Shown: piece by piece, positions 26,506 to 35,722 of the stretch
Layout: each line of letters opens with the position of its first letter
Position numbering within the stretch: position 1 is the first letter of the stretch
Source: Streptomyces inusitatus
Lineage (GTDB): Bacteria > Actinomycetota > Actinomycetes > Streptomycetales > Streptomycetaceae
NCBI RefSeq assembly: GCF_014651115.1
Contig: NZ_BMWG01000001.1
Span: 372,001 to 436,000, forward strand
DNA length: 64,000 nucleotides
Reading direction: 5' to 3'
The notes under the pieces: model-generated
Database searches by the model: none
Told to the model about the DNA's origin: nothing
Seen by the model: only the letters and a program-made list of their open reading frames with translations
Made by a program: the position numbers and the translations under genes

Positions 26506-26985
26506 TCAGGTTCCGCCGAGTGTCGGCGGCTCACCATGTTCCAGATAGACGGTCGAGCCGTCCGCCCGAGCCCGAATACCGGCGGTGATCCGGCGTACGA
26601 GCCGGGGAATGGTCAGCTCCGGCAGCCGTTCGGCGGGGTGGAAGTCGTAGCCGCGAAGCTCGTCGGCCTGGATCCTGACCCGCCGACGCTGCTCCGCGCC
26701 GAGGAGGCCGCCGTCGAAGAGGTAGAGGACCTTGTCCCCCTCTCCCGGATTCGGTGCCCAGTCCACGACGAGCAGTCGGCCGATCCGAGGCGCAATGCCC
26801 AGCTCCTCCTGGACCTCTCGCGCGCAGGCCCGCAGGGGTGACTCGCCGCGCTCGACGTATCCACCCGGGATATCGCGGTAGTCCTTGTAGGACGGCTCGA
26901 CGAGCAGGACGCGATCGACCTCGTCGAAGAAGAGAACACCAGCTGCCATGCGGGGGTGGGCCATCTTCGCCTCGTGCTCGTTCAC
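26506..26985 (-). CDS. NUDIX hydrolase
   Basis: 159 residues. The NUDIX box is complete: GGYVERGESPLRACAREVQE followed by ELGI, giving the Gx5Ex7REUxEExGU metal site. N-terminus MNEHEAKMAHPRMAAGVLFF. Hydrolyses a nucleoside-diphosphate-linked compound; substrate unknown. Its promoter and first 17 codons are nearly identical in DNA to those of the TetR gene at 60101 (see findings). Confidence 0.9.
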   Translation of the reverse strand: MNEHEAKMAHPRMAAGVLFFDEVDRVLLVEPSYKDYRDIPGGYVERGESPLRACAREVQEELGIAPRIGRLLVVDWAPNPGEGDKVLYLFDGGLLGAEQRRRVRIQADELRGYDFHPAERLPELTIPRLVRRITAGIRARADGSTVYLEHGEPPTLGGT

Positions 26986-26995
26986 AAGGTGGACT

Positions 26996-28219
26996 CTAAC
27001 TGCTGTCGATGATGTGCAACCTGTGGGCCAGGCCAGCTACGGACTGGGACGGGCGGCCTCTCGTACCGCGAATCCAGCCGATGACCAGTTCCCGGCTCAG
27101 GTAGTGGTGACGTACCTGTTCAGGAGCGGCCTGTTCGGCGTCCAGCAGAATGGACAAAGCTTCGTCGGTCCGGTTCCAGGCACTGAGCGCTCGGGCGACC
27201 TCAAGGCTGTGTCGCACTCGCCGCTCCACCGGCATGGCACTGGTGTCGATTCGGGGTCCGAGGTCCGCTGCTACCTGTAAATCCCCGAGCTCTCTGGCTG
27301 TTGCCACGCGATGGATGGCCACGTTGGTTGGGCCGAAGGCTGTCCACAGATGGTTGGCGTCGGAGCCTAACCTGCGCGCGGATTCGTCCGCTTCCCTGAG
27401 GAAGCTCTGAACTGTCGCTCGGTCCTCTGCTCTTGCGGCTGCCATGGCCCCGGCGAGGAAGAGTGTGCCGTACACCGAAAGGTATTCGTCGTCTGCGTCG
27501 CCCAGTTCTGGCTGCATCACGGCTGCTGCGTCGTTCACCAGCTGGACCGCCGCAGTGAAGCGTCCAGTGGCCAGAAGGCAGTGCGCGACCGACCGGATGA
27601 GCGAGCCCGATACCGCGCTCTGACCGCTGAGCTGTGCGGCTCCCAGCCCTCGGTCGGCGGCGATCCAAGCCAGCTCCGGCTCCCCGACCTTGCCCAGTAC
27701 CAATGCCGCACCCTGGTAGGTCAGGGCAAGCAGGGCATGAACCTCTTCCCGTTCGCGCCCTGAGTACGCACGGGATGCGGCGAGGGCATCGGCAAGAACG
27801 AAGGGAAGGCGTCGAGTGGCGAAGCTGTAGCGCGATGCCTGGTACGCATCGAGAATCTCCCTCACGTCAGCCTGGAGATCCTTCAAGGTGGGAGGTTCGC
27901 CATCGGAAGGAGGTCCCAGCAAGGGCGTGAGTTGTCTGTAATCCATGAGCGCTTCGTGCAACGCGGGGGCTGTCCGCTTGCCGCCATTACCTGGCCAATC
28001 CATGAGGGTTGGCTCTGCAAGCAACTCTCCAAGGGAAACATCGAGGGCCTTGGCGAGCGAGGTGATCACCGAGAGGCGATCGAGTTCGATCCGGTTGTTC
28101 TCCGCTTTACTCAACCAGTCTGCGGTGCGTCCGACAAGGCCGGCCAAGACCTCCTGCGAGAGGCCGCGTCGACGCCGGTACCAAGCGATGCGCTCGCCGG
28201 TGGTCAGATTCTCTGTCAT
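26996..28219 (-). CDS. XRE-family regulator with TPR sensor domain
   Basis: 407 residues. Helix-turn-helix at about 8-62 (TGERIAWYRRRRGLSQEVLA, GLVGRTADWLSKAENNRIEL), then a long all-helical TPR-like region (HALLALTYQGAALVLGKVGE, SLIRSVAHCLLATGRFTAAV, RHSLEVARALSAWNRTDEAL). Start ATG 28219 or 28228. It is divergent from the radical-SAM operon across a 141-bp gap containing a hairpin, so it is the likely regulator of that operon. Confidence 0.85.
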   Translation of the reverse strand: MTENLTTGERIAWYRRRRGLSQEVLAGLVGRTADWLSKAENNRIELDRLSVITSLAKALDVSLGELLAEPTLMDWPGNGGKRTAPALHEALMDYRQLTPLLGPPSDGEPPTLKDLQADVREILDAYQASRYSFATRRLPFVLADALAASRAYSGREREEVHALLALTYQGAALVLGKVGEPELAWIAADRGLGAAQLSGQSAVSGSLIRSVAHCLLATGRFTAAVQLVNDAAAVMQPELGDADDEYLSVYGTLFLAGAMAAARAEDRATVQSFLREADESARRLGSDANHLWTAFGPTNVAIHRVATARELGDLQVAADLGPRIDTSAMPVERRVRHSLEVARALSAWNRTDEALSILLDAEQAAPEQVRHHYLSRELVIGWIRGTRGRPSQSVAGLAHRLHIIDSS

Positions 28220-28260
28220 CCCTCGCATGTCCTGACTGTCACCTCGTGGCTAAAAGAAAC

Positions 28261-28281
28261 CCCCGGAAGGTTTTTCCGGGG
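28261..28281. promoter_or_regulatory. Hairpin upstream of the radical-SAM operon
   Basis: CCCCGGAA-GGTTT-TTCCGGGG, a perfect 8-bp stem with 5-base loop, lies between the divergent XRE-TPR regulator and the operon. Could be an operator, or an attenuator in the 5' leader of the operon mRNA. Confidence 0.45.
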
Positions 28282-28360
28282 CACTGCGGGGTGCTTTGCC
28301 TACTCTCGCAGCAGATCGAGAAGGTCGCCGGGAAACGCAGGCAACGCCCTGGGAGGCGCA

Positions 28361-29386
28361 GTGAGCACCACACGATCCGTAGCCGGTGCACCAGCGGTCG
28401 ACTGGACTGCATTACACAACTTCGCCGCTCTGCGGGGGCAGCTAAGAGTGTCCTTGACGCCTCGCTGCAACATCGCGTGCTTCTTCTGCCACAACGAGGA
28501 TGACATCCCACCGCCGCTGACCCGTGCGGACCGCAGCCGACAGCCTCGTGCGCGTGTCTACCAGGCGGGAGATTTCCTGACTGTCATCGCCTCGATGATG
28601 GCGGCAGGCCTCAAGCGCGTGTACTTCACGGGCGGGGAGCCCTTGAACTCGCCCGTGGCCCGCGACGTGCTGACGGCTCTGCCGCCTTCCGGCCTTGACA
28701 GCTCGTACACGCTGATCACGAACGGCACTCAGGTCCGGACCCATCAGGAGTGGCTCACCCAGACGCCTCTGGACAAGATCAAGGTGTCGCTTCACTACTT
28801 CTCCGACGAGTCTCTGCGTGCCATCGCGGGCACTCACATCGGCATCGGCACGGTGCTGGACGGTATTGCCGCATCGCAGGAGATGTTCGAGCGGGTCGAA
28901 CTGAACTGCCTGCTGCTCAAGCAGAACACACATGAGGTGCAATCGATCCTTGAGTTCGCGCTGAATCGGCGGATGCCGGTTCAGTTCATCGAACTGGTTC
29001 CGACGGATTTCAACGATGGCCGCGCCGATACCGCTGTCTCCGCCGAGGGAATCATCGGGCATCTGAGGACCCTCACCCAGGACGAGCACATCGAGGTGAC
29101 CGGGGTCGGTCAGGGGCGGCGGATCTTCCGCGTCGACGGGGTGGAGATCGATGTCATCCACCGCGATCTGGGCCGCCACCATGTCGGCCAGTGCGGTACC
29201 TGTCCTGTCCGGGCCAAGTGCGTCGAGGGGTTCTGGGCCCTGCGCGTCGACCACGCTGGTGGCATCCAGCCCTGCCTGCTCCGCGGTGACCTGCGCCTGG
29301 ACGTCAAGGACCTGGTCAAGGAGTCCGGACGGCTCGCCTCTGCCGTTGCCGGACACATCTCGCAGTTCACCGAGGGGACCTTGTGA
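28361..29386 (+). CDS. MoaA-like radical SAM enzyme, first gene of operon
   Basis: 341 residues. GGGAGG precedes GTG 28361; the frame is open upstream but without a ribosome site. The radical-SAM cluster motif is CNIACFFC (Cys36, 40, 43), followed by the SAM-binding TGGEP at 90-94. The middle resembles MoaA (VELNCLLLKQNTHEV, PVQFIELVPTDFN). A second Cys cluster (CGTCPVRAKC, then IQPCLL) sits where MoaA binds its substrate-side iron-sulfur cluster, suggesting a nucleotide or similar substrate. The stop overlaps the kinase start (GTGA). It differs from viperin, which lacks the C-terminal Cys cluster. Confidence 0.85.
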   Translation: MSTTRSVAGAPAVDWTALHNFAALRGQLRVSLTPRCNIACFFCHNEDDIPPPLTRADRSRQPRARVYQAGDFLTVIASMMAAGLKRVYFTGGEPLNSPVARDVLTALPPSGLDSSYTLITNGTQVRTHQEWLTQTPLDKIKVSLHYFSDESLRAIAGTHIGIGTVLDGIAASQEMFERVELNCLLLKQNTHEVQSILEFALNRRMPVQFIELVPTDFNDGRADTAVSAEGIIGHLRTLTQDEHIEVTGVGQGRRIFRVDGVEIDVIHRDLGRHHVGQCGTCPVRAKCVEGFWALRVDHAGGIQPCLLRGDLRLDVKDLVKESGRLASAVAGHISQFTEGTL

Positions 29387-30021
29387 TATTGCCCGCCGCC
29401 TATCGGCCCGTCCCGCGCACCGAGAGCCGCCAAGGCCCGTTCGTCGTTCTGGAAGGCGTATCCGGCATTGGCAAGTCCACTCTGACCGCTCTGCTGGCTC
29501 ACCGCATGAACGCGACCAGCCTGCACACCTTGGCCGACCCGCACACCGGATGGAGTCCGGAAGCGAACGAACAGCTCCGGTCCCTGCCCCAGTTCGCGTT
29601 CTACCTTTCCGGCTTGCTGCACGCCTCCGATCTCGTTCGTCAGGCCGTGACCGTCGGCCCGGTAGTCGCCGATCGCTATGCCTCCTCGGTGGCGGCTTGC
29701 CATGCCGCCGTCCACGGCCTCGACCCTGCCGAAGTAGGCGTACTGATCGATCCCTTCCGTCCCTATCTGATCGTCCCCGATGCCACGTTTTACCTGACCT
29801 GCTCCGAGGCGACCCTGCGTAGCCGAATGACCGGCAAGCTCGACATCAAGCAGGACGACACCGACCTCTTCGACGTGGCCGACCGCTACAAGCAGCTCTT
29901 GGAGAACTTCGAGCAGGTCGCCACCAGTGACTCCACGGCCGTGATCCTTCCCACCGATGACCAGAGCCCCGACCAGCTCGCCGACACGATCGCGGCACAC
30001 CTGGAGGAAGCCCGTGCTTAA
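29383..30021 (+). CDS. Thymidylate-kinase-like nucleotide kinase
   Basis: 212 residues. P-loop GVSGIGKST at about 25-33, the DRY motif (VVADRYASS) near 95 used by thymidylate kinases, and a late segment TFYLTCSEATLRSRMTG that fits the LID/Arg region. The N-terminal extension of about 17 residues is unusual. Probably phosphorylates a nucleotide-like intermediate of the operon. Start GTG overlaps the radical-SAM stop by 4 bases; the end overlaps the next gene by 7. Confidence 0.82.
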   Translation: MILPAAYRPVPRTESRQGPFVVLEGVSGIGKSTLTALLAHRMNATSLHTLADPHTGWSPEANEQLRSLPQFAFYLSGLLHASDLVRQAVTVGPVVADRYASSVAACHAAVHGLDPAEVGVLIDPFRPYLIVPDATFYLTCSEATLRSRMTGKLDIKQDDTDLFDVADRYKQLLENFEQVATSDSTAVILPTDDQSPDQLADTIAAHLEEARA

Positions 30022-30523
30022 TCCCATCGACGCCGAGACCGTTGTCCGCGACGGCGGGGCACACGGCCGGTTCCCCGGCCAGATCCACGCCGGAGTCGCC
30101 TGGTGGATGGCGGCTTGCTTCGTCGTCACCGCACGGGCTTGCCGCCTGGTGGTCGCCCACGACGGCAAACCGTCCTCAAGCGAGTTCTTCGACCGACTCT
30201 GCCAGGGTGCCGTCAACGCTCAGCATTACGCCTGCCAGGTCCTGAACCGTGGCCAAGCCGACGAGGTCGCGCTACTGGCCGCCATGCGCCAGGCCGGAGA
30301 CGCACCCGGCATCCTCGTCACCACCAAGGAGACCGGCGGCGACACCGTGCAGGTCACAATCACCCTGTACGGCCGCGACGGCAAACCACTCGATGAGACA
30401 GACGGGCTCGCCGCGATCCGGCGGATGATCGCCGAAGACCGGGTGCCGATCCCTGTCAACGAAGCCTCCAAGGGCAGAGTCCAGCCCTTCACAGCGGCGG
30501 CCGGTGAGGGCAAGAGCAAATGA
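30015..30523 (+). CDS. Phosphohexomutase domain-I-like protein lacking the catalytic serine
   Basis: 169 residues resembling only the first domain of phosphomannomutase/phosphoglucomutase: RFPGQIHAGVAWWMAACFVV, CRLVVAHDGKPSSSEFFDRL (the GRDTR-SS-type strand), then APGILVTTKETGGDTVQVTI where a mutase has the TASHNP loop. The phosphoserine is missing, and domains II-IV are absent. The rest, LYGRDGKPLDETDGLAAIRR, keeps the domain-I ending. Probably a binding or regulatory protein for a sugar-phosphate-like compound. The assignment rests on pattern similarity and should be treated as tentative. Confidence 0.6.
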
Positions 30524-31311
30524 TCAATACAGCTGATGTCGTCCTCACCGGCACGGACATTCTGTTCGTCACCCTCGACTCGCTGCGCTACGACGTCGCC
30601 CGTACAGCCCTGGCCGAGGGCCGCGCTCCCCACCTCGCCCGGCTGCTGCCCGGCGGAGTATGGGAGCTCCGGCAGACTCCCGGCACATTCACTCTCCCCG
30701 CCCACATGGCCTTCTTCTCGGGATTCCTGCCCAAGCTTCCACAGCCCGAACAGCCCCCTCGCCTGTGGGAATGCCGCCCGCCGTCGTTCAAGACCGTGCC
30801 GTCCCAGACGTTTCTGTTCGAGGCCCCGAACCTCCTCGAAGGACTGAAACAGCACGGCTACCGCACGGTGTGTGTCGGCGGTGTCACCTACTTCTCCCGC
30901 GAGACCCCACTCGGCGGTGTACTGCCAGACATGTTCGACGAAGATCACTGGCGACCGGAGTTCTGCTCACCCGAACCGGACTCCACCCGTCACCAGGTCG
31001 ACCAGGCCCTCGCTCTGGCCAACCAGCACTCCGGGCGCCCGCTGTTCCTGTTCGTCAACATCTCGGCCACCCATGTACCCCACGGCTTCTACATCGGGGA
31101 CAGCACCGACAGCATCCGCTCCCAGATCGCTGCCCTCGCCTATGCCGACACACATCTCGGACGGCTGATCGACACACTGACCCACGACCGCCACTGGCTG
31201 ATCATCATGTGCGCCGATCACGGCGATGCCTTCGGGGAGGGCGGATACCGGGGGCGGGGAATCGTACGCCCGGAAGTCACCAACGTCCCGTTCGCGGCCT
31301 GGCTGTCCTGA
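30520..31311 (+). CDS. STM4013/SEN3800-family sulfatase-like hydrolase
   Basis: 263 residues of the alkaline-phosphatase/sulfatase superfamily. ILFVTLDSLRYDVA provides the first metal ligands, HTPGTF-like QTPGTFTLPAHMAFFSGFLP the region around the nucleophile Thr, VCVGGVTYFSRETPLGGVLP the family-specific middle, and CADHGDAFGEGGY the last metal site. This closely follows the STM4013 family, usually found beside STM4011/STM4012 radical SAM proteins of a poorly understood peptide or small-molecule pathway; here it is coupled to a different radical SAM. Start overlaps the upstream stop (ATGA). Confidence 0.82.
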   Translation: MINTADVVLTGTDILFVTLDSLRYDVARTALAEGRAPHLARLLPGGVWELRQTPGTFTLPAHMAFFSGFLPKLPQPEQPPRLWECRPPSFKTVPSQTFLFEAPNLLEGLKQHGYRTVCVGGVTYFSRETPLGGVLPDMFDEDHWRPEFCSPEPDSTRHQVDQALALANQHSGRPLFLFVNISATHVPHGFYIGDSTDSIRSQIAALAYADTHLGRLIDTLTHDRHWLIIMCADHGDAFGEGGYRGRGIVRPEVTNVPFAAWLS

Positions 31312-31333
31312 CACACCGCTACTCTCGCGTCGC

Positions 31334-31801
31334 ATGAGCGACGACAGCAACAGCGCCCCTGCCCGCGACGCATCCGTGGTCGTAGCCGTGGACGAGAAGG
31401 GACAGGCGGCGATCCTGTCCGCCCACTTCCCCGACCACGGCGGCGAATATCTGTTCCTGCCGGGCGGGCGCAGGGAGGACGGCGAGACCCCTGAGCAGTG
31501 CGCCCGGCGAGAACTCGCCGAGGAGGCGGGGATCACCGCCGAAGCGTGGAGCCCACTGGGCTCTTATGCCATCACCCTCGCTTCACCCGCCCGTGTCCAC
31601 CTCTTCGAGGCGCGCCGGCTCTCTCTGGGCCCGCAGCAGCTAACCCCCAGCGAACTGGATTTCAAGCTGACGTGGTGGCCGATCGACGAAGCCGTACAAG
31701 CCGCCGTCGAGGGCCGCTTCCTCCTCCCAGCCGGCCCTCTCGCACTCATGCTGGCTGCTCGCTGGAATAACCACAGGTCAACATGTGTCGTCCCCGCGTA
31801 G
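31334..31801 (+). CDS. NUDIX hydrolase, last gene of radical-SAM operon
   Basis: 155 residues. NUDIX box GGRREDGETPEQCARRELAE followed by EAGI is complete. Starts at ATG 31334, 22 bp after the sulfatase-like gene, and probably belongs to the same transcript. The last residues (NNHRSTCVVPA) are encoded by the first half of a CRISPR-like repeat, so the C-terminus appears to have been replaced or extended. Confidence 0.85.
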   Translation: MSDDSNSAPARDASVVVAVDEKGQAAILSAHFPDHGGEYLFLPGGRREDGETPEQCARRELAEEAGITAEAWSPLGSYAITLASPARVHLFEARRLSLGPQQLTPSELDFKLTWWPIDEAVQAAVEGRFLLPAGPLALMLAARWNNHRSTCVVPA

Positions 31802-33114: not shown

Positions 33115-33308
33115 GCCGCGACGGCTTTCCGACGGCCGATCGAAACACATTCACTCGCTTTCGACGGCACTTTCCGTGACCTCAATCTGTCTTTCAACCG
33201 GTGAATGCCGCACAGGGATTCGCGCTGCCTGAAAACAAAGCGCCATTCCCTTATTTCGTGCTGCCCGTAAACCGGTTCGAGGCATCATCACGAAACGAGA
33301 GCCCAGCG

Positions 33309-34421
33309 ATGTCATCTTCCACGTCGTCTTCCGCGCCCGCGATCCGTACGAGTCTGTCCGGGCTGGTCGGCAATACCCCGCTGCTGCGGGTCGCCGAGCC
33401 CTTCACCCCGGACGACCGGGGGTTCTGGGCCAAGCTGGAGGGCTTCAACCCCGGCGGGATCAAGGACCGGCCCGCCCTGCACATGGTCGAGCGGGCACGC
33501 GCCCGGGGCGAACTGCTCCCCGGGGCCAGGATCATCGAGTCCACCAGCGGCACCCTGGGACTCGGTCTGGCGCTCGCCGGGATGGTCTACGGCCACCCCG
33601 TCACCCTGGTCACCGACCCGGGCCTGGAGGGGTCCATGACCCGGCTGCTCAGCGCGTACGGGGCACAGGTGAACGTGGTCTCCGAGCCGCACCCCACCGG
33701 CGGCTGGCAGGAGGCCAGGCGCGAGCGGGTGGCCCACCTCATGGCGCGGCACCCGGACTCCTGGTGCCCCGACCAGTACAACAACCCGGACAACACGACC
33801 GCGTACACCCCGCTCGCGCTCGAAATCGCCGCCGAGCTGGGGCATGTGGACGTCCTGGTGTGCAGCGTGGGCACCGGCGGCCACTCCGCCGGGGTGTCCA
33901 GGGTGCTGCGCGGGCTCTATCCACGGCTGCGGATGGTCGGCGTCGACACCATCGGCTCCACGATCTTCGGGCAGCCCGCCCGGCCCCGGCTGATGCGGGG
34001 CCTCGGCTCCAGCATCTATCCGCGCAATGTGGCGTACGACAGCTTCGACGAGGTCCACTGGGTCGCCCCCGCCGAGGCCGTGTGGGCCTGCCGCGCGCTC
34101 GCCGCCTCGCACTACGCCACCGGCGGCTGGAGCGTCGGATCGGTCGCCCTGGTCGCGGGCTGGCTCGCCCGCACCCTGGGCCCGGACGCCCGGATCGCGG
34201 CGATCTTCCCCGACGGGCCGCAGCGCTATCTCGGGACGGTGTACGACGACGACTACTGCGCCGCCCACGGGCTGCTGGACGGCCCGCCCGCCTCCGAGCC
34301 CGAAGTCGTCGGCCGGCCCGACGAGAAGGAGGTGACCCGCTGGACGCGGTGCACCGACGTCGCCGACCCGCTCACTCTCGCCCGTACGGCGGAGAACGAC
34401 ACCAGCGGCGAGGAGCGGTGA
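33309..34421 (+). CDS. PLP-dependent cysteine-synthase-family enzyme
   Basis: 370 residues of the fold-type II PLP family: [18 protein letters not shown] at the N-terminus, the PLP lysine in [35 protein letters not shown], and the phosphate-binding Gly loop [11 protein letters not shown]. It diverges from ordinary cysteine synthases at the C-terminus, so it may add a nucleophile to an O-activated amino acid in specialised metabolism. Overlaps the MFS gene by GTGA: synthesis and export of one product are likely linked. Confidence 0.85.
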
Positions 34422-35722
34422 CGGCGGGCACGCTCGCGCAGTTCCGCTCCCACCGGCCCAGTGTCCAACTGCTGATGATGAATCAGTTCACCATCAATCT
34501 GGGCTTCTACATGCTGATGCCGTATCTGGCCGCCCATCTCTCCGGCGGCCTCGGACTCGCGGGCTGGACCATCGGGCTCATCCTCGGCATGCGCAACTTC
34601 AGCCAGCAGGGCATGTTCCTGGTCGGCGGCACCCTCGCCGACCGGCTCGGCTACAAACCGCTGATCGTCGCGGGCTGTCTGCTGCGGACCGTCGGTTTCG
34701 CCGCCCTCGGGCTGGTGGACTCGCTGCCCGCGCTGCTGGCGGCCTCGGCGGCGACCGGGCTGGCCGGGGCGCTCTTCAACCCGGCGGTGCGCGCCTATCT
34801 GGCGGCGGACGCGGGTGAGCGGCGGGTGGAGGCGTTCGCGCTGTTCAACGTCTTCTATCAGGCGGGGATTCTGCTGGGGCCGCTGGTGGGTATGGTGCTG
34901 ACCGGGGTCGACTTCCGGCTCACCTGTCTGGTGTCGGCGGCGGTCTTCGCCGTACTGAGCGCCGTCCAGATCCGCGCGCTGCCCGCGGCGCGCGGGTCCG
35001 GGAAGACGGCACAAGACGACGGCGGGAGCGGGGAGAGCGTCCTCGCGCAGTGGCGGAGCGTGGTCCGCAACCGGCCGTTCCTGCTGTTCTCCGCCGCCAT
35101 GATCGGCTCGTACGTGCTGACCTTCCAGGTCTATCTGGCGCTGCCGCTGGAGATACGGCGGGCGGGCGGCGACGGCGGCTTCGGCACGGCGGCGGTGGCG
35201 CTGCTCTTCGCCGTCTCCGGGCTCTCCACCATCCTCTTCCAGACCCGGGTCACGGCCTGGTGCCGGGCGCGCCTCGCCCCGGGGCAGGCGGTGACCCGGG
35301 GCGTGCTGATCATGGGGCTGGCCTTCGTGCCGCTGCTCGCCGCGACGGCACTGCCGGTGCCGGACGGCGGTGGGTACGGCGGCGGCGCGGCGCGCTGGCT
35401 GCTCGCGGCCGGGCCGCCGGTGCTCGCCGCGCTGCTCCTCGCGCTGGGGACGATGATCGCGTACCCCTTCGAGATGGACACCATCGTCCGGCTCTCGGGC
35501 GACCGGCTGGTGGCCACGCACTACGGGCTCTACAACACCATCTGCGGAGTCGGCATCACCCTGGGCAATCTCCTCACCGGCGCGGCCCTGGACACCGCCC
35601 GCGCGGCGGGCCTCGCCGCACTGCCCTGGCTGGCGCTGCTCGCGCTCGGCCTGCTCTCGGCGGCGGCGCTCCGGGCGCTGCACCGGACAGGCCGGCTGGA
35701 AGCCGCGCCGGAACCGGGCTGA
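34418..35722 (+). CDS. MFS transporter
   Basis: 434 residues, about twelve hydrophobic spans. The A-motif between TM2 and TM3 reads [15 protein letters not shown], and the C-motif-like region [13 protein letters not shown] suggests an antiporter of the drug-exporter branch. A hydrophilic loop ([17 protein letters not shown]) separates the halves. GTG 34418 overlaps the stop of the PLP enzyme, pointing to export of that enzyme's product. Confidence 0.88.

Follow-up and report, generated by a model that had tools for sequence, protein, structure and literature searches.

A conserved radical SAM, kinase and NUDIX operon in Streptomyces inusitatus with a possible role in modified-nucleotide synthesis

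The window analyzed here is a stretch of 64,000 nucleotides from Streptomyces inusitatus (NZ_BMWG01000001.1, positions 372,001 to 436,000, forward strand). It contains an operon of five genes for a radical S-adenosylmethionine (SAM) enzyme, a P-loop kinase, a mutase-like protein, an STM4013-type hydrolase and a NUDIX hydrolase. This operon is a real, conserved unit, and its genes occur together far beyond chance. The favored explanation, to which a probability of about 0.5 is assigned, is a mobile cassette for the synthesis of a modified nucleoside or nucleotide, perhaps a 4'-thio compound, whose maker is protected by the NUDIX enzyme. That the operon encodes a modified-nucleotide pathway of some kind is probable, and the exchange of oxygen for sulfur in particular is put forward tentatively.

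The five-gene unit and its distribution

Five genes had been claimed for this region by a first-pass annotation of the sequence, and all of them are present as open reading frames on the plus strand:

28361..29386, + strand: radical SAM enzyme, 341 amino acids (aa), with cluster cysteines C36/C40/C43 and auxiliary cysteines C278/C281/C287/C305; R29 and R295 align with Arg17 and Arg268 of MoaA
29383..30021, + strand: P-loop kinase of the thymidylate-kinase superfamily, 212 aa, with the Walker A motif GVSGIGKS and a DRY motif
30014..30523, + strand: lone phosphohexomutase domain I, 169 aa, the SHNP phosphoserine loop missing
30520..31311, + strand: STM4013/SEN3800-family hydrolase of the alkaline phosphatase superfamily, 263 aa, with Thr58 at the presumed nucleophile position
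31334..31801, + strand: NUDIX hydrolase, 155 aa, with an intact Nudix box

The genes are closely packed. A GTGA overlap of 4 bases joins the radical SAM and kinase genes, an ATGA overlap of 4 bases joins the mutase-like and hydrolase genes, and a 22-base gap precedes the NUDIX gene, all as first annotated; only the overlap of the kinase and mutase-like genes, given there as 7 bases, comprises 8 bases (30014-30021). The GC content of the operon genes is 0.64 to 0.68 and that of their third codon positions (GC3) about 0.80, compared to a GC content of 0.712 for the window and a GC3 of 0.907 for the next downstream gene, and these low values fit an acquisition from outside.

The mutase-like protein served as the probe for the distribution of the cassette. 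In a small sample of 61 genomes, including its own, the short protein was present in three other genomes of the same genus, and the remaining weak matches were full-length mutase frames. A larger sample of 392 Streptomyces genomes, again including its own, gave matches at an expect (E) value of 1e-8 in 120 genomes. Twenty of these 120 best matches were clearly set apart as the short protein (3e-28 or better, the next being 1.7e-13), and nearly all others were located within frames of at least 450 aa, as expected for phosphomannomutases. The cassette is thus found in 20 of the 392 genomes, with all five genes near the short mutase-like protein in 17 of them. The copies in genomes G146 and G002 look broken, and that in G081 had no NUDIX match. 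The G002 copy (L017:4053-5299) is decayed, with a partial mutase-like gene, a hydrolase split over two frames and no match to the radical SAM enzyme or the kinase.

An independent scan with the radical SAM enzyme led to 34 named loci of Streptomyces and Actinacidiphila, partly in the same genomes as the sample of 392, in which the copies of this enzyme are 65 to 75% identical. The conserved co-occurrence proposed as a check was borne out: all five genes occur in the same order in 31 of the 34 loci, and radical SAM enzyme, kinase and NUDIX enzyme occur in all 34, the two other genes being inserted before the NUDIX gene in 31. The radical SAM match was divided between frames in L049 and L051. 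Two linear plasmids, one of S. albidoflavus and one of Kitasatospora, also carry all five genes. At an E value of 1e-30, no relative of the radical SAM enzyme outside the Streptomycetaceae was found in the overlapping samples of 394 genomes of the class (137 genera) and 296 of the phylum (198 genera), the only matches being the own genome and one more of the same genus; most sampled Streptomyces likewise do not contain this enzyme.

The mutase-like and hydrolase genes are missing in three of the named loci (L036, L044 and L046), which keep the radical SAM, kinase and NUDIX genes. These loci form one clade (97/93) nested in the five-gene tree when it is rooted on the Kitasatospora copy, and again one clade with the phage copies described below as the root, when the Kitasatospora copy branches first (71/61). 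All mutase matches at an E value of 1e-5 in these three genomes were full-length frames, and two of the three had no match to the STM4013 hydrolase. The third possesses a separate STM4013 hydrolase elsewhere (415 bits), adjoining two other radical SAM genes, a neighborhood that presumably recalls the canonical STM4011-STM4013 arrangement. The absence of both genes from this clade indicates that radical SAM enzyme, kinase and NUDIX enzyme represent the core and the other two proteins a dispensable module.

The cassette is horizontally mobile and resides in Streptomyces, their plasmids and some virus-like elements. A scan of viral contigs yielded four loci, L157 to L160. All five genes are present in L157, in which the one flank protein tested against phage families gave no structural match. 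Two phage-like contigs carry a radical SAM-kinase-NUDIX cassette (L158:7839-10540 and L159:7827-10231), with radical SAM enzymes 51 to 52% and kinases 48 to 50% identical to those of the window and a weakly similar NUDIX enzyme. Endolysin and minor tail genes are located near both cassettes; L158 also has a Dit match and a divergent upstream regulator that belongs to the phage family phrog_5823. Sixteen records of named phages matched, with identities of 29.4% or less in all cases. In the fourth locus (L160:7788-9056), the radical SAM frame spans about 420 residues and contains FCHNEG, but the auxiliary cysteine motif is absent; the next gene has no assigned function.

The radical SAM enzyme and its partners

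The radical SAM enzyme contains the SAM-site cysteines C36-x3-C40-x2-C43 and a C-terminal cysteine cluster, both of which had been noticed before. The cluster had been called MoaA-like, and this part did not hold: its cysteines C278, C281, C287 and C305 are spaced C-x2-C-x5-C-x17-C as in AbmM, and the spacing in MoaA is C-x2-C-x13-C. AbmM swaps sulfur for oxygen with its own iron-sulfur cluster as the donor, according to work cited in the available excerpts of PMC12691670. In addition to the identical cysteine spacing, AbmM (8wm2) shares with our enzyme the FCHNE motif, the same two arginines and a Ser at the position of MoaA Arg266, where our copies have Ala or Ser; it differs in an overall identity of 26% and in its location within the large albomycin cluster.

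The signature composed of FCHNE and C-x2-C-x5-C-x17-C is our own definition, derived from two AbmM copies, and is present in all 33 copies of the family, with N or D at one position. As CH[ND]E plus the cysteine motif, it was found in these 33 copies and in both AbmM genes detected among 382 Streptomyces genomes. Searches for MoaA, viperin and AbmM had supplied 41 further radical SAM frames, 26 of them with the MoaA spacing, and none of these 41 has the signature. The radical SAM copies of L158 and L159 carry it, too. The positions of MoaA Arg17 and Arg268 are R in our family (33/33), in AbmM (2/2) and in MoaA (12/12); the position of Arg266 is R in 12 of 12 MoaA and A or S in ours (33/33) and in AbmM. 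We take these MoaA arginines to bind substrate phosphates. The title of the PDB entry 2fb2 describes a MoaA triple mutant in them.

The profile of the family matched MoaA best among the solved sequences (78.6 and 75.4 bits), followed by AbmM in third place (49.9 bits), with viperin-like proteins at no more than 30.6 bits and BlsE at 27.3 bits. The three NCBIfam moaA models gave 112.4, 111.9 and 111.3 bits, all below their respective cutoffs of 231, 284.05 and 325.25, and the viperin model gave 32.6 bits, with a cutoff of 180. A separate true MoaA is encoded by the same genome (364.8 bits). The predicted model, with a predicted local distance difference test (pLDDT) score of 84.7, has MoaA as its nearest fold (Z 26.9, root mean square deviation [rmsd] 3.0, 296 residues aligned); AbmM (Z 17.2, rmsd 4.2, 257 aligned) ranks under viperins, BlsE and others, and the structural matches to our model also include DesII.

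The kinase had been described as thymidylate-kinase-like, in agreement with the Pfam model Thymidylate_kin (35.5 bits, cutoff 27), although the NCBIfam model DTMP_kinase remained below its cutoff (53.3 of 83.25 bits). Its best 15 solved matches were all thymidylate kinases, one of them a thymidylate/uridylate kinase. Walker A is present in 39 and DR[YW] in all of 40 relatives.

The mutase-like protein retained the domain I fold assigned to it: the predicted model (pLDDT 93.2) matched with a Foldseek E value of 2.9e-09 and a VIA Z of up to 20.3 (rmsd 3.5, 150 residues aligned). It is a single domain of 169 aa and does not show the four-domain architecture of phosphohexomutases. In 39 aligned rows, which leave out the more distant Kitasatospora copy, the phosphoserine stretch is replaced by variable sequence without SHNP (the per-position counts at this site cover 38 rows), and H25, W30, W31, N68, H71, C74 and R136 are invariant. 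With the phosphoserine loop gone, a mutase step is unlikely.

The hydrolase is a member of the STM4013 family (NCBIfam NF038075, 331.5 bits, cutoff 250), as had been recognized. The STM4011/STM4012-type partners expected beside it are not in the conserved set, which differs from STM4011-STM4015 in having no second radical SAM gene. D20, T58, H185, H188 and D233 are kept in 39 of 39 copies; at position 244, the window hydrolase has Arg where 32 of 39 copies have His. The open-access literature on STM4013 gave a single match, a paper on the Salmonella sigma54 regulon whose available excerpts do not give a function. The NUDIX enzyme scored 62.5 bits with the Pfam model NUDIX (cutoff 21.1), and the Nudix box Gx5Ex7REUxEExGU, its last hydrophobic position unscored, occurs in 41 of 41 relatives.

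The proposed pathway and competing explanations

The first-pass annotation knew of no described pathway with this gene set. Among the matches listed, no description of the five-gene set was found in the open-access literature, nor is one contained in the available excerpts of PMC12691670, PMC10853773, PMC7074753, PMC3844500, PMC6112128 and PMC9032320. For the core, this claim has to be amended. The excerpts of PMC12691670 report that the adjacent genes thmA (radical SAM enzyme), thmB (nucleoside kinase) and thmC (nucleoside triphosphatase) of Photorhabdus asymbiotica make 4'-thiothymidine in Escherichia coli, that thmC alone protects E. coli, that the neighbors of thmA-C change, and that ThmA has no significant homology to the radical SAM enzymes of albomycin. 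The core of our cassette comprises the same types of genes, radical SAM enzyme, kinase and a nucleoside triphosphate-hydrolyzing enzyme, in all 34 loci. In tubercidin biosynthesis, the last hydrolysis is reported to be performed by a Nudix enzyme (PMC6112128, excerpts). Taken as analogies, the thm and tubercidin parallels support a modified-nucleotide pathway in which the NUDIX enzyme would serve release or immunity, and the gene set fits the earlier suggestion of modified-nucleotide synthesis with a NUDIX guard.

A search with AbmG led to two conjugative E. coli plasmids, NZ_CP027324.1 (L161) and NZ_CP045714.1 (H22), which encode a kinase that shares about 34% identity with AbmG over 65% of it. 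On L161 (5063-7073), the order is radical SAM gene, annotated deoxynucleoside kinase gene and the gene for the NUDIX enzyme NudI, which is the order of our core, with no mutase-like or hydrolase gene in between. This trio is presumably a thm relative, as judged from the similarity to AbmG and not from a comparison with the P. asymbiotica sequence. Its radical SAM enzyme matched the viperin model best in NCBIfam (86 bits, cutoff 180) and, unlike ours, has no auxiliary cysteine motif. The parallels with thm therefore concern the parts, and for L161 also the order, but not orthology.

From the gene set, its order and conservation, the motifs and the folds of the two predicted models, we infer each of the following reactions. 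The kinase would phosphorylate a nucleoside or a (deoxy)nucleoside monophosphate and in this way supply or trap the substrate. The radical SAM enzyme would bind the phosphorylated nucleotide via the two arginines shared with MoaA and alter its sugar; the AbmM-type auxiliary iron-sulfur site suggests that the ring oxygen may be swapped for sulfur, which would give a 4'-thionucleotide. The NUDIX enzyme would clear the polymerase-ready modified triphosphate from the pool of the producer, as reported for ThmC and 4'-thiothymidine. In the five-gene form, removal of a phosphate by the hydrolase might release the product, and the mutase-domain protein might bind or position a sugar phosphate; both proteins can be lost.

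A more far-reaching version, which is doubtful, is that streptomycetes, linear plasmids and phages share mobile 4'-thionucleotide cassettes with AbmM-type sulfur donation, the product being a weapon against competitors or invading phages and the NUDIX immunity traveling along. If such a cassette family exists, radical SAM-kinase-NUDIX trios would have arisen on more than one occasion, in Streptomyces and Enterobacterales, from enzymes of different families, as a general scheme for producing a toxic nucleotide and withstanding it. If the favored explanation is right, the operon would be a small nucleoside-analogue source that can be cloned, present in about 1 of 20 sampled Streptomyces genomes, rare 4'-thio chemistry would reach beyond albomycin and 4'-thiothymidine, and dozens of natural AbmM-like enzyme variants would be at hand. 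It would also offer a way to examine if cassettes for nucleotide poisons, complete with their own immunity, pass between phages and bacteria, and such an exchange would link antibiotic production to phage defense.

Several results weigh against the favored explanation. Overall similarity of the radical SAM enzyme favors MoaA over AbmM, in the profile (78.6 versus 49.9 bits) as well as in the fold (Z 26.9 versus 17.2), and the auxiliary loop is poorly modeled (pLDDT below 50 at residues 274-276 and 286-288). The frames to which the cysteine motif was compared had been chosen by similarity searches. A tree node uniting our family, AbmM and one long-branched row had values of 80/71 in one build; with this row removed, our family joined MoaA (72/54), and an approximately unbiased test gave p = 0.307 for our family plus AbmM. 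Since the viperin model exceeded its cutoff in none of 149 genomes, these trees contain no true viperin outgroup. The L161 proteins are not orthologous to ours, with scores of only 13.5, 16.0 and 17.7 bits for radical SAM enzyme, kinase and NUDIX enzyme in searches with our profiles, and AbmG was rejected as a homologue of our kinase, the profile of which finds no match to it. The conserved set includes no transporter. Finally, the window hydrolase has Arg250 where 37 of 39 copies have His, and judged from this replacement, it may be impaired.

Alternatively, the operon may act in phage defense in the manner of viperins, a link on which the first-pass annotation had speculated, although this is unlikely. 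The radical SAM enzyme would make an intracellular chain-terminating nucleotide that stops phage polymerases, the kinase would top up the precursor and the NUDIX enzyme would clear the excess. Prokaryotic viperins also stand beside a P-loop nucleotide kinase, and among the defense-database models, PDC-M51B matched 11 of 11 and VakA 6 of 11 copies of our kinase at an E value of 1e-8. Weak pVip and viperin matches of the radical SAM enzyme, a plasmid copy whose distance to the closest type I-E CRISPR gene is 4.8 kb, and a sparse and mobile spread, with a relative on phage-like contigs as rival phages might carry it, point in the same direction. However, the viperin score is 32.6 bits for a cutoff of 180 while the MoaA-type models reach about 112 bits, a NUDIX gene accompanies the enzyme in 34 of 34 loci, and the auxiliary cysteine cluster present here is, to our knowledge, absent from viperins. 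Moreover, the flanks are, by a weak test, not enriched in defense families (18 versus 120 in controls), although two flank proteins match Csx1.

A MoaA-like cyclase that rearranges a purine nucleotide such as GTP, the product being pterin-like or a cyclic nucleotide and not a thio-sugar, is quite unlikely. MoaA (GTP 3',8-cyclase) is the closest match in fold and profile, and two of the three arginines mutated in 2fb2 are kept. Nevertheless, the enzyme stays far under the MoaA cutoffs, Arg266 is replaced by A or S and the auxiliary spacing is different (both in 33 of 33 copies), the GG tail of the two MoaA copies compared is replaced by [TIV]L in all 33, the genome has its own MoaA apart from the operon, and neither MoaC nor another cofactor gene belongs to the conserved set. 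Very improbable is a tailoring of sugar phosphates or sugar nucleotides, with the mutase-like protein and the hydrolase as the core and the radical SAM enzyme altering a sugar-1-phosphate or NDP-sugar: the domain I fold, the alkaline-phosphatase-superfamily hydrolase and the structural matches to DesII and BlsE, whose substrates are sugars joined to nucleotides or bases, would fit, but the two supposed core proteins are absent from both phage forms and from 3 of the 34 loci, which retain radical SAM enzyme, kinase and NUDIX enzyme, the phosphoserine loop is gone, and the conserved set contains no glycosyltransferase.

Regulators and flanking genes

Upstream of the five genes, the divergent XRE-TPR regulator of the first-pass annotation is located as described, together with two further features:

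26996..28228, - strand: divergent XRE-TPR regulator, 410 aa, matching phage family phrog_5823 (317 bits)
28229..28360, no strand: divergent intergenic region of 132 bases that separates the regulator from the radical SAM gene, presumably promoter and operator
26506-26985, - strand: a further NUDIX gene, different from that of the operon, which immediately follows the XRE-TPR regulator on the same strand

The match to phrog_5823 extends over nearly the full length of the regulator, which probably controls the operon. An XRE- or TPR-type gene occurs within about 3 kb upstream in 22 of the 34 loci; these genes, 19 of which are divergent, come from several nonorthologous families. The reference regulators came mostly from the same 34 loci, and L029, L030 and L038 have less than 600 bases of upstream sequence. 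Downstream of the operon, at 33201-35722 of the window, are cysteine-synthase-like and MFS-transporter-like genes, named by eye without a family search. A similar pair exists in L127, where no cassette was seen, so that the pair is probably unrelated to the operon.

The flanks of the cassette are unrelated between loci. No sixth conserved gene was found, the top flank families being present in 10, 8, 6 and 6 of 35 loci (window included). Judged from the sequences and from Pfam counts in a sample, these four are probably an HATPase, XRE/DUF5753, DUF6879 and a YfbR-like HD protein, all of them types of protein that Streptomyces genomes commonly encode.

A possible defense island around the cassette was evaluated with PADLOC. 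From 289 called flank proteins of 90 to 1200 aa, up to 6 kb from the cassette, 140 were drawn at random, and 120 were tested after removal of the two longest and the last 18. The control started from 179 called proteins in 12 stretches 0.6 to 0.7 Mb from the cassette in six genomes; 140 were drawn, and removal of three very long proteins and of the last 17 left 120. The idea was rejected: 18 families matched in the 120 flank proteins and 120 in the 120 controls, which is no enrichment, the test being a weak one. Ten of the 18 families were Cas12f/Cas12u models, to which one or two proteins matched, and Pfam shows two OrfB/TnpB-type proteins in the flanks; the others were mad2, mad3, mad8, Csx1 (two proteins), two restriction models and two PbeA models. 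In the control, 22 of 25 families listed were matched by one protein each.

On the S. albidoflavus linear plasmid (L081:1-15429), the cassette is located 4.8 kb from the cas3 end of type I-E CRISPR-Cas genes. In L024 (7487-9180), and also in L021, L023, L027 and L028, a regulator-like gene and a gene for an HD protein lie upstream of the cassette as a divergently oriented pair. This HD protein is YfbR-like by the Pfam tally, may be a 5'-deoxynucleotidase, and belongs to a family present in six loci.

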